This document shows, one piece after another, positions 14,578-24,553 of a stretch of DNA of 64,000 nt. Position numbers and translations under genes: made by a program. How positions within the stretch are numbered: position 1 is the stretch's first letter; every line of letters begins with the position of its first letter. The stretch spans positions 1-64,000 of the IMG/VR virus record IMGVR_UViG_3300005096_000005. The stretch is one strand, 5' to 3'. This stretch comes from a virus. The notes beneath the pieces are model-generated. The model saw only the letters and a program-made list of their open reading frames with translations, searched no databases and was not told the origin of the DNA.

Positions 14578-14605
14578 TTGACAGTTGCAACCCTCTGTGT
14601 ATAAT
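14578..14605 (+). promoter_or_regulatory. Sigma70-type promoter for the RNA array
   Basis: A perfect -35 TTGACA (14578-14583) and -10 TATAAT (14600-14605) separated by 16 bases. Transcription should start near 14612 and run through the small gene at 14656 into the RNA region. The inverted repeat GGGTTG/CAACCC (14575-14580 and 14588-14593) overlaps the -35 element and could be an operator. Confidence 0.9.
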
Positions 14606-14655: not shown

Positions 14656-14856
14656 ATGTCAGGAACAAGAATAATTGTAAGAATGGAGCGGGAAACCAAA
14701 GAGCTCACTGTGAATCTCCCAACGGACTTCACTGACGAGGGTCTCAGGGAGATCATCGCCTCGGAACTTAATTGCGACACCGGTCGGCTGCAGCCTCTTA
14801 TCATCGAGCGAACACCGAATGGTATCACTCTTCGCGAGGAGGCACCGTTCGGATAA
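14656..14856 (+). CDS. Hypothetical small protein, first gene after the strong promoter
   Basis: 66 residues preceded by GAGGTGA. NLPTDFTDEGLREIIASEL suggests a small alpha/beta fold. It is the only protein gene between the strong promoter and 16,776, so it may be a leader gene of the RNA operon. No family recognised. Confidence 0.55.
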   Translation: MSGTRIIVRMERETKELTVNLPTDFTDEGLREIIASELNCDTGRLQPLIIERTPNGITLREEAPFG

Positions 14857-14863
14857 GCATAAC

Positions 14864-14943
14864 GGGTTGGCGCAGGGCGGCGCGAGTTTTCAGGGAAACC
14901 AGGGACACCTGAAGACTATCCGGGATCACGACCCGGGCAACCC
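14864..14943 (+). ncRNA. Cloverleaf-like RNA that is not a standard tRNA
   Basis: Closing helix GGGTTG/CAACCC; D-arm-like hairpin GCGC-AGGGCG-GCGC (14870-14883); a long hairpin AGTTTTCAGG/CCTGAAGACT (14885-14917) in the anticodon-arm position with a 13-nt loop; and a T-arm-like hairpin CCGGG/CCCGG (14920-14936) with a seven-base loop ATCACGA. The layout is that of a tRNA, but the T-loop lacks TTCRA and the anticodon arm is doubled in length. A tRNA-mimicking Y-RNA-like molecule is an attractive reading, given the TROVE protein at 23030. This is inference from folding by eye. Confidence 0.5.
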
Positions 14944-14949
14944 ACTTTC

Positions 14950-14978
14950 TGTCGCACACACGCAGTAAGCGTACAAAC
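14950..14978 (+). other. 3' half of the tRNA-intron element (before tRNA at 14980)
   Basis: Contains TGTCGCAC, joint ACACG, CAGTAAGC and the invariant UACAAAC, ending one base before the tRNA starts. TGTCGCAC can pair over 8 bp (one G-U) with GTGCGGCA at 15097-15104, and AGTAAGC over 7 bp with GCTTACT at 15083-15089. The two halves of the element therefore surround the tRNA in reversed order. Confidence 0.7.
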
Positions 14979-14979
14979 A

Positions 14980-15055
14980 TTGGAGTTAGCTCAAGTGGTT
15001 GAGCATCAGCCTATTAAGCTGAAGGTTGCTGGTTCGAGCCCAGCACCCCAAACCA
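14980..15055 (+). tRNA. tRNA-Asn-like, anticodon AUU, flanked by intron halves, encodes CCA
   Basis: Acceptor TTGGAGT/ACCCCAA (one A-C mismatch), D-arm GCTC/GAGC, anticodon stem TCAGC/GCTGA, loop CTATTAA (anticodon AUU, codon AAU), T-loop TTCGAGC. The 3' end reads A-CCA, so CCA is encoded; most tRNAs here do not encode it. A34 in an Asn anticodon is unusual, and a normal tRNA-Asn(GUU) exists at 18893. The gene lies between a 3' and a 5' half of the shared intron element. Confidence 0.8.
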
Positions 15056-15082
15056 GTCCCGGGGGACATAAAACACCCATCC

Positions 15083-15104
15083 GCTTACTACACCAGGTGC
15101 GGCA
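15083..15104 (+). other. 5' half of the tRNA-intron element (after tRNA at 14980)
   Basis: GCTTACT, then ACACCAG, then GTGCGGCA. These correspond to the first helix strand, the ACC linker and the hairpin 5' strand seen in the intact inserts. Their partners lie upstream at 14950-14970. It runs directly into the next tRNA at 15110, sharing the 10-base direct repeat GCACACACGC with the upstream half. Confidence 0.65.
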
Positions 15105-15109
15105 CACAC

Positions 15110-15262
15110 GCCCGCGTAGCTCAGCTGGCTAGAGCACCTCATAGTTTTCTTAGCTTTGAGCACCAGGTACGGTAAATCTCCGGAGACATCGTACATACGC
15201 CCCAGGCTTACAAACTTACCCTTAGGAGGGGGCGGTCGCAGGTTCGAATCCTGTCGCGGGCA
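15110..15262 (+). tRNA. Interrupted tRNA, anticodon UAG (reads CUA)
   Basis: Exons 15110 to about 15139 and about 15220 to 15262. Acceptor GCCCGCG/CGCGGGC, D-arm GCTC/GAGC, anticodon stem CCTCC/GGGGG after joining, loop CTTAGGA (anticodon UAG), T-arm GCAGG/CCTGT with TTCGAAT. The roughly 80-nt insert falls within the 5' strand of the anticodon stem, so no tRNA can form without its removal. By anticodon it would be Leu, but the variable loop is only 5 nt, unlike tRNA-Leu. Exact splice sites are ambiguous by a few bases. Confidence 0.8.
15152..15215 (+). other. tRNA-intron element in the UAG tRNA
   Basis: AGCTT (15152-15156) pairs with AGGCT (15204-15208, one G-U); CACCAG linker; hairpin GTACGGT/ATCGTAC (15167-15194); joint ATACG; then UACAAAC (15209-15215). 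Its hairpin loop holds TCTCCGGAGACATCGTA, nearly identical to the insert at 15703, so these two copies are recently related. Confidence 0.8.
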
Positions 15263-15270
15263 CTTAACAT

Positions 15271-15344
15271 TGCGAGGTAGAGCAGCAGGTCAGCTCGGAT
15301 GTCTCATAAGCATCAGGTCACGGGTTCGAATCCCGTCCTCGCAA
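15271..15344 (+). tRNA. tRNA-Met (CAU)
   Basis: Uninterrupted. Acceptor TGCGAGG/CCTCGCA, D-arm GAGC/GCTC, anticodon stem GATGT/GCATC, loop CTCATAA, T-arm ACGGG/CCCGT with TTCGAAT. Anticodon CAU; initiator, elongator or Ile2 identity cannot be decided by eye. Confidence 0.92.
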
Positions 15345-15433
15345 TAGAAACATCGGCAGTTAAAGGGAGGAAGAAAAGACCCGGAGACTGTGAACCTTGA
15401 TAAGTATATACCAGTCCAGTAATTGCTTTTTAT

Positions 15434-22983: not shown

Positions 22984-23029
22984 TTACCTACTACCAGGGA
23001 CGATAGGATCGTCCAGAAAGAGGTGACAC

Positions 23030-24553
23030 ATGACAGACATGTCAAGAGAAGAAAGAGATTACAGGACACAGATGCTTAATGCAGTCCTGGTTACACCCCA
23101 CAGAGATCGCAAAGGTACCAAGAAAGACACAAGTGCTCACCAGCATACCCGTGAGACATTACTCAGTTACCACAACGAACTCCTGCAGAATGACCCCCTT
23201 TTCTATGGGAAACTCGGATACTGGTATATGCAGAATGGAAGCATTCGGGATCACATGGAAGCCTTTGTAGGCAACATGTTCCTGAGTCCGGTTCCCGAGC
23301 ATCGTGACGCAGCTCACGTGATCGTATCGAAAGGAGATCAGTTTGCTCCTTACCAAATTCCCCGGCTTATTGACTTCGTCGAGAAGGATCAGGGTCGAAA
23401 CATGCCCCGTTGCATGAAAAAGGCCATCCATCGTTGGATCGATCAACTCGAATCAGACACAGCCAGGTTTGATGGTGCCGCATTACATGCTCGCAAGCAT
23501 CTGAAGTACGTTGCCAGAAAAACACGGAGCCACCTGTCTGAAAGGTCCAGGGGTATTCTCTTCACTAAAGAATATCCTGAAGGTTCAGTGTTCGAAGCAC
23601 TGAGACGCATGTCTAATGAGGACATGGAACCGCAGGAAGTCGCAGAGACTATCGTCAAGCATAAGATTCCGCTGAGGATAGCAGGTGCGTATATGAAAGC
23701 GGTTACACCTACTGTCCTCTGCGCAGTAGTTCATAATATGTCGTCCCAGGAACTCATCAACAACGTGGGCTGGCTGCAGGATCGCGGAGCCCTGGACAAT
23801 GAAGACCTCAAAGCTCTGGTCCAGGAAAAGCTGAAGAAGGCAAGGAAAGACAAAAACGTGGCCGCCATGAAAACAAGGACGGCTATCAGTACAGGTCGTG
23901 TCCATGACGAGAGTATCATGGAACAACTCCAGGAAGTAGGAGACGAACAGCTCAAAGCCAAAGGACGCATCCGCAGAGATACACTCCTGTCAATCGACAA
24001 GTCAGGATCAATGTACAATTCAATTCGCCTGGGAGTGGAGCTCGGGTCACTTATTGCCCAGTCACTGGAAGATGGCGCAGCGCTTTATGCGTTCGCGTTC
24101 GACACAGCTCCGTACGAGCTGGGCAACCCGGGGCCAAGAATGTCTGACTGGGAGAAGGCTCTCAAGTTCATCAAAGCAGGCGGAGGGACAGCATGCGGTG
24201 CTCCCACGACAGTCCTTACCAGGAAGGATATTATGGTAGAGAACATCGTCATCATATCTGATGGTGGTGACGGTTGCTCTCCGTTCTTCGACAACGCCTA
24301 CACAGAATACGTGAACAAGACCGGAGCAAAGCCTCTTGTCACGTTCATTGCTATCGATACTGCAGGCAATATACCGGGTAGACAGACACGTCTCGGGAAT
24401 GAGATCGAAGATCTGAAGATTGAACACAGAATCATCGACTTCAAAGGAGACAAGTACAGTCTTCCAGACGTCATTACCATCCTGTCCAGGCCGTCAATGT
24501 TTGATCTCGTTATGGAGATCATGGCTATCGAGCTGCCCAAACGTGCGGCATAA
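23030..24553 (+). CDS. TROVE-domain (Ro60/Rsr-like) RNA-binding protein with VWA domain
   Basis: 507 residues, GAGGTGA upstream. The N-terminal 270 residues follow the TROVE repeat pattern: FYGKLGYWYMQNGSIRDH, GRNMPRCMKKAIHRWID and PTVLCAVVHNMSSQELINNV. The C-terminal part is a von Willebrand A domain with DKSGSM near residue 324 (MIDAS). Ro60 proteins bind Y RNAs and misfolded small RNAs; bacterial Rsr works with tRNA-mimicking Y RNAs in RNA decay. Its position at the end of the tRNA array, which also holds several cloverleaf-like RNAs that are not tRNAs, points to a Ro-Y RNA system carried by the phage. The RNA partner is inferred. Confidence 0.82.
   Translation: MTDMSREERDYRTQMLNAVLVTPHRDRKGTKKDTSAHQHTRETLLSYHNELLQNDPLFYGKLGYWYMQNGSIRDHMEAFVGNMFLSPVPEHRDAAHVIVSKGDQFAPYQIPRLIDFVEKDQGRNMPRCMKKAIHRWIDQLESDTARFDGAALHARKHLKYVARKTRSHLSERSRGILFTKEYPEGSVFEALRRMSNEDMEPQEVAETIVKHKIPLRIAGAYMKAVTPTVLCAVVHNMSSQELINNVGWLQDRGALDNEDLKALVQEKLKKARKDKNVAAMKTRTAISTGRVHDESIMEQLQEVGDEQLKAKGRIRRDTLLSIDKSGSMYNSIRLGVELGSLIAQSLEDGAALYAFAFDTAPYELGNPGPRMSDWEKALKFIKAGGGTACGAPTTVLTRKDIMVENIVIISDGGDGCSPFFDNAYTEYVNKTGAKPLVTFIAIDTAGNIPGRQTRLGNEIEDLKIEHRIIDFKGDKYSLPDVITILSRPSMFDLVMEIMAIELPKRAA

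Follow-up and report, generated by a model that had tools for sequence, protein, structure and literature searches.

The tRNA-fused Y RNAs of this phage lie beside, and not within, the four-armed RNA at 14864-14943 of the window (the whole stretch of 64,000 nucleotides that was analysed). The sequence-only reading had taken this cloverleaf for a Y RNA candidate; such an identity fails for 14864-14943 and holds for its neighbourhood, where tRNA-fused Y RNAs are encoded in an adjoining array. The region is probably an operon-like Ro60 (TROVE) locus whose Y RNAs do not include the cloverleaf; its Ro60 sites would be the modules at 14950-16399, with binding suggested by linkage to TROVE and by core copies of the module in TROVE 5′ UTRs. 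The features of the locus are as follows.

14578-14605, plus strand: sigma-70 promoter-like site, TTGACA-16-TATAAT (12/12), consensus match only
14656-14856, plus strand: 66-aa ubiquitin-like (beta-grasp) protein
14864-14943, plus strand: the flagged four-way junction, with a 6-bp closing stem and three hairpins, without a Y module (folds, z-scores)
14950-15104, plus strand: Y RNA 1, P2 14950-14957/15097-15104, P1 14964-14971/15082-15089, UACAAAC 14972-14978, enclosing tRNA-Asn(AUU) at 14980-15055
15150-15215, plus strand: Y module 2, in a tRNA-Leu(UAG) gene (15110-15252)
15434-15586, plus strand: Y RNA 3, P2 and P1 around a circularly permuted tRNA (sequence, fold; model R1 finds the 3′ half)
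15700-15765, plus strand: Y module 4, in a tRNA(UUG) gene (15662-15813), near position 26
15900-15953, plus strand: Y module 5, in a tRNA-Leu(UAA) gene (15885-16017), position 8-9
16096-16149, plus strand: Y module 6, in a tRNA-like RNA (16067-16200) whose anticodon arm is a closed hairpin
16346-16399, plus strand: Y module 7, in the D-loop of a tRNA gene (16323-16459)
22993-23016, plus strand: Y-module core (ACCAGG and P2 hairpin) in the TROVE 5′ UTR (sequence, fold, weak R1 match)
23030-24553, plus strand: predicted Ro60/TROVE protein, HEAT ring and vWA domain

The fold of the flagged RNA is as it had been described, with the minimum free energy and centroid structures in agreement. The closing stem, GGGUUG/CAACCC, pairs 14864-14869 with 14938-14943 over 6 bp and leads into a D-like arm (GCGC-AGGGCG-GCGC, 14870-14883), an anticodon-like arm (AGUUUUCAGG-(GAAACCAGGGACA)-CCUGAAGACU, 14885-14917), for which the predicted fold bears out the reported 10-bp stem and 13-nt loop, and a T-like arm (UCCGGG-AUCACGA-CCCGGG, 14919-14937), whose 7-nt loop, AUCACGA, is indeed not UUCRA (TTCRA in DNA). 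The four arms are perfectly stacked, and the linkers between them measure 0, 1, 1 and 0 bases. The 80 nt fold at -36.6 kcal/mol (z -3.2; 2/200 shuffles as stable), and with short flanks the value is -38.1 kcal/mol (z -3.6; 0/200 shuffles as stable). Its energy is reached by 20 of the 6392 94-nt windows on both strands of the 64 kb (~0.3%), one random window in a sample of 250 has a z of -3.2 or lower, and when the RNA itself was shuffled 1000 times, 11 of the products gave any such cloverleaf. Despite the 90 cloverleaf-type folds in the window, real tRNAs counted, the fold is beyond chance, and it is the most stable cloverleaf of the window on the plus strand. The description as a four-armed cloverleaf is right, while the likeness to tRNA is weak because the linker at positions 8-9 and the variable loop are absent, and 'four-way junction' describes the RNA better than 'tRNA mimic'. 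A tRNA identity was rejected on this missing linker, a variable region of 1 nt, the AUCACGA T-loop and the 13-nt anticodon-like loop, and neither ARAGORN nor the Rfam tRNA model RF00005 detects the RNA.

What identifies a Y RNA is an end stem carrying the Ro60-binding helix with a conserved asymmetric internal loop (PMC4726728). The ends of the cloverleaf do pair (6 bp) but open directly into the four-way junction, with no internal loop, and between 14864 and 14943 there is no P2/P1 stem pair, no CCNWAC/ACYWGG loop closing on a stem and no UACAAAC; none of the conserved Y blocks is present. The Infernal search suggested as a check on the Y-RNA claim returned no Rfam match to the cloverleaf, either at the gathering threshold or at E<=10. 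The YrlA model RF02553, run at E<=10 over 14840-16480, gave no match overlapping it, and assignment to YrlA was rejected by this covariance model, which produced background scores only across the whole record and the control genomes. Likewise, our Y-module model R1 found nothing at 14864-14943 even with its filters off, but picked up seven modules in the adjoining stretch; the closest Y RNA begins at 14950, 7 nt downstream of the cloverleaf. In a search for distant DNA relatives of the region in phages no homologue of the cloverleaf was found, the matches listed covering the tRNA-Asn part only, and a conserved cloverleaf behind the small ORF of three other phages is not supported, with different hairpins standing there. 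The small ORF stands upstream of the structure and Y RNA 1 downstream, and its folding depends on neither. The A-CTT at its 3′ flank is what usually follows a tRNA gene in these phages, so the cloverleaf sits in a tRNA slot, and its 3′ end region, CAACCC-A-CUUUC-UGUC, looks like the 3′ end of a tRNA with a Y stem behind it.

The modules that do belong to the Y family consist of a stem P2 (6-8 bp), an internal loop CCNWAC/ACYWGG, a stem P1 (5-8 bp) and then UACAAAC. They are called Y because their architecture matches the bacterial Y RNA plan, in which a Ro-binding stem is combined with a tRNA-like domain and encoded near Ro60 (PMC8394870; PMC4726728; PMC7790460). Most copies have a 5′ end that pairs with the 3′ end, and a tRNA or a short loop at the far end. 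The second loop strand reads ACUUG(G) in other phages (ACTTGG as DNA) and ACCAGG in this phage, and the cyanobacterial modules end in UACAUAC instead of UACAAAC. In the tRNA array adjoining the cloverleaf the module is seen as a repeated motif ending in GCUUACAAAC. The 595-kb phage LR756511, whose TROVE homologue has 39% identity, carries the motif many times directly upstream of TROVE; two further phage contigs, found by the DNA pattern of the RNA motif alone, both have a TROVE homologue directly downstream, and TROVE lies downstream of the modules on the same strand in 4/4 phages first examined. Searches that started from TROVE brought in further phages as well as 67 loci in bacteria (cyanobacteria, planctomycetes, deltaproteobacteria and others). 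Modules upstream of TROVE number 179 in sense against 0 in antisense orientation (45 of 63 related loci), and 8 lie downstream (one finder). Motif matches in the set L005-L011 and a copy at 72663 of the record were judged to be chance, their long shared flanks resembling coding sequence.

The pairing within the modules covaries strongly. The 19 copies of other phages score 0.547 for covariation, whereas shuffling gives 0.240 and 0/500 shuffles reach the observed score; 94% of their cells are paired, and sliding the partner by one base destroys the signal. In 118 bacterial copies, chosen by primary sequence alone, 90% of the P2 cells are paired, a share that never exceeds 83% in shuffles. The covariance model R1 was built from 19 copies of other phages and includes no window sequence; its seven best matches in the 64-kb window all fall between 14952 and 16399, and on non-phage copies it reaches E-values down to 4e-6. 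The scores of the window copies are modest (11-21 bits) because these have ACCAGG where the others have ACTTGG. The P2/P1 stems and the conserved loop of the family, supported by covariation among the other-phage copies, are found at 14950-15104, at 15434-15586 and in the five inserted modules, and for 14950-16399 the nearby Ro60 gene is the downstream TROVE.

The seven modules at 14950-16399 differ in how they are joined to tRNA: five lie inside tRNA genes, while of the other two Y RNA 1 surrounds a tRNA and Y RNA 3 a circularly permuted one. The minimum free energy structure of Y RNA 1 contains an 8-bp P2 and an 8-bp P1. In Y RNA 3 the T arm and the acceptor 3′ strand come before the acceptor 5′ strand, the D arm and the anticodon arm, while the five inserted modules are inside-out and sit in the D-loop, at position 8-9 or at position 26 of the tRNA genes.

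Several observations were made alongside. tRNA genes interrupted, enclosed or permuted by a Y module occur at 15110-16460 of the window and in the TROVE phages L002 (15789-19240), L037 (8700-9880), L040 (6600-8900), L038 (7600-8980) and L041 (8870-9640). tRNA bodies with the anticodon AUU stand in or around Y modules of unrelated genomes (window 14980-15055, L003 4061-4120, L043 near 8190), where A34 is odd for a bacterial tRNA-Asn. Structured non-tRNA RNAs lie between the array genes at 15827-15890 and 16201-16320, with closing stems GAAGUGGUG/CACCACUUC and CAGAUAC/GUAUCUG, and at 16657-16990 of L002 a permuted Y module surrounds an RNA of ~290 nt with GACGGTCATAAGGTAGCGAG, 23S rRNA-like by eye. 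In L043, L051 and L074 (Microcoleus, Laspinema), 25-30 tRNA genes lie upstream of a chromosomal TROVE, and Y RNAs enclosing tRNAs are present in these loci. At 784-859 the window also holds a tRNA gene with anticodon CUA, tRNA-Pyl according to ARAGORN and possibly an amber suppressor.

The sequence-only reading was correct in placing a TROVE protein at 23030. By sequence and by its predicted structure, the product of 23030-24553 is a Ro60 homologue: phmmer against the PDB returns TROVE chains (E 5e-6), PHROGs gives 'RNA-binding protein' phrog_850 (2e-7), and Pfam gives no match. The AlphaFold model, made from 21 relatives (pLDDT 86.5), matches 2nvo, 1yvp, 9nen and 9l5y with E-values of 1e-9 to 5e-11; its counterparts are Rsr of D. 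radiodurans and vertebrate Ro60 (Xenopus, human), both at E about 1e-10, as well as the Ro60 encoded by Thermus phage phiLo. The protein has a DKSGS motif, and the model has the HEAT-repeat ring and a vWA domain with MIDAS. As sole queries, the TROVE and UDG proteins of the window gave no matches in viral_contigs. The 66-aa protein encoded ahead of the cloverleaf has homologues ending in RPxAVFG or RPEAVYG, upstream of or next to TROVE in ~40 loci; its predicted model (pLDDT 88.8) has ubiquitin-like domains as its best matches, which are weak, and the protein is not in Pfam. Just ahead of the Shine-Dalgarno sequence of TROVE lies the core copy at 22993-23016, which is without P1. Core copies occupy the same position in the TROVE 5′ UTR of L002 (19934-19968) and L040 (9951-10002), with E-values of 2e-5 and 2e-3, and a core ahead of the TROVE start suggests autoregulation.

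Taken as a unit, the layout is operon-like and runs from the promoter-like site at 14578 through the ubiquitin-like protein, the cloverleaf, the tRNA-fused Y-module array and more tRNAs to TROVE. The binding sites for Ro60 would be the modules of P2 stem, CCNWAC/ACYWGG loop, P1 stem and UACAAAC at 14950-16399, which may tether TROVE while the attached tRNA body acts as an effector or decoy domain. Through the core copy ahead of its start codon, TROVE would repress its own mRNA. In related phages the slot of the cloverleaf holds a tRNA gene, and here it may be a decayed or restructured tRNA slot. If the cloverleaf has a role, the likeliest would be in RNA processing or stability: it would keep the mRNA apart from the Y RNAs and shield the 3′ end of the transcript of the small gene.

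For the cloverleaf, a remodelled tRNA slot or a structured spacer is favoured over a Y RNA. That it is a degenerate or remodelled, non-decoding tRNA gene, one of several tRNA-like RNAs of the array without an anticodon arm, is possible, if doubtful: it stands in a tRNA slot ahead of a Y RNA with the A-CTT 3′ context, shares ACTTTCTGTC with a tRNA-??? gene in the same slot of L040, and has a parallel in module 6, whose host is also a tRNA-like RNA with its anticodon arm closed. Against such an origin stand the absent linker 8-9, variable loop and TTCRA, and the silence of both tRNA finders. We give about the same tentative weight to a stable structured spacer that arose by chance behind the small gene and has no specific function. 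The share of equally stable windows given above fits a chance spacer, as does the lack of visible conservation, other phages having different hairpins at the same place; its rank as the most stable plus-strand cloverleaf of the window and its position in a tRNA-like slot do not. Very unlikely is a divergent Y RNA or TROVE ligand, in which the 10-bp arm with its ACCAGGGAC loop would replace the anticodon arm as the Ro60-binding stem. The cloverleaf does adjoin Y RNAs in a TROVE locus, bacterial Y RNAs do combine a Ro-binding stem with a tRNA-like domain (PMC8394870), and the 9 bases ACCAGGGAC of the long-arm loop recur in the TROVE 5′ UTR, as a relic or weak TROVE site might. However, no P2 helix follows ACCAGG in the cloverleaf, and neither the module model with filters off nor Rfam matches it. 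A pairing of this ACCAGG with the strand at 14950 was also rejected: the P1 and P2 partners of that strand (8+8 bp) are located downstream, at 15082-15104, and not in the cloverleaf. The cloverleaf is stable but probably incidental.

The modules inside tRNA genes could be read as small introns that are excised, the permuted and flanked copies then giving circular pre-tRNAs. Such introns are conceivable because removal of the inserted modules restores good tRNAs: in several genes, taking out ~50-80 nt ending exactly at ACAAAC leaves tRNAs that score as intact. The flanked tRNA in L002 and L040 reads CCA-AAAC, where joining would regenerate the acceptor, and the Leu tRNAs of the window occur in interrupted form only. 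We nevertheless consider excision unlikely. The identical module occurs in free-standing Y RNAs, and among the tRNA bodies are some that cannot decode, some whose anticodon arm is closed and some with the anticodon AUU. Moreover, UACAAAC often serves as the 5′ strand of an acceptor: the 3′ end of the module pairs with the tRNA part, where the complement, which changes along with it (GUUU, but GUAU opposite cyanobacterial UACAUAC), is enriched (59/123; mean of 40 and maximum of 52 in shuffles), and at such sites cutting would be unnecessary. Of the two ligase families searched for, RtcB was not found in any of four phages, nor was an Rnl2-type ligase in this record, and the interrupted tRNAs have no match to a group I intron or another Rfam ribozyme. 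A combined scheme, in which the Y modules are mobile, removable inserts of tRNA genes, TROVE aids their excision or the circularisation of permuted tRNAs, and Y RNA and intron are two states of one element, is distinctly improbable. Our preferred reading is that of Y modules fused to tRNAs in a Ro60 locus.

That Y RNAs with tRNA-like domains lie near Ro60 in bacteria and phages is already known from reviews. Key primary papers on bacterial Y RNAs are Chen 2014, which reportedly describes such Y RNAs, and Sim and Wolin 2018. In the part of the literature covered, we found no description of inside-out insertion in tRNA genes or of mixed topologies in one array, nor of a conserved ubiquitin-like partner or a copy in the TROVE leader, and we claim no priority. 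The locus bears on the question of why Y RNAs of bacteria should look like tRNA. A single Y module is here combined with genuine tRNAs in all topologies: it surrounds a tRNA or a permuted tRNA, lies inside D-loops or stands free. In phages, cyanobacteria, planctomycetes and others, its loci pair the module with Ro60 and with a ubiquitin-like protein, and they offer a large natural set for testing the role of the tRNA part for Ro60, together with a defined RNA motif for finding Y RNAs. For the flagged cloverleaf the result is sobering.

Among known systems, the closest comparison is with the YrlA class (RF02553) and its Rsr/Ro60 partners, with which the phage modules share paired ends that form the Ro-binding stem, an opposite tRNA-like domain and a gene adjacent to Ro60 (PMC8394870). 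Y RNA 3 even has the YrlA order, with the T arm before the D arm. In contrast to YrlA, whole tRNAs are enclosed here, the array has many copies, and five inside-out copies are inserted in tRNA genes; no module at 14950-16399 matches the Rfam Y or YrlA models at gathering score, the best YrlA score in this record being 16.5 bits against a cut-off of 69. A vertebrate Y3-type sequence (PMC4619022) reads GGCUGGUCCGA..., GUUUACAAC..., ...CACUUGACUAGCC; by eye, its block order recurs in the phage modules as GUCCCCUAC, GCUUACAAAC and GACUUGGAC. Similarly, GGUCCGA, UUUACAAC and CACUUGAC of the Y3-type sequence resemble GUCCCCUAC, CUUACAAAC and GACUUGGAC of the phage in order, again by eye and as a lead only (PMC4619022). 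The phage modules differ from vertebrate Y RNAs in having no Rfam Y_RNA match, and the bulged C and three-base bulge are not demonstrated in them. With the Ro60 of Thermus phage phiLo (9L5Y) and the TROVE proteins of jumbo phages (PMC7824862), the phage shares a TROVE ring with a vWA domain that is encoded by a phage. These proteins are only distantly related in sequence to that of 23030-24553.

Permuted and intron-containing tRNA genes of archaea and algae have reversed tRNA halves and insertions at variable positions of the tRNA. Reversed halves and insertions are likewise seen in the phage array; here, however, the insert is a Y module and not a bulge-helix-bulge intron, and splicing is only one reading of it.
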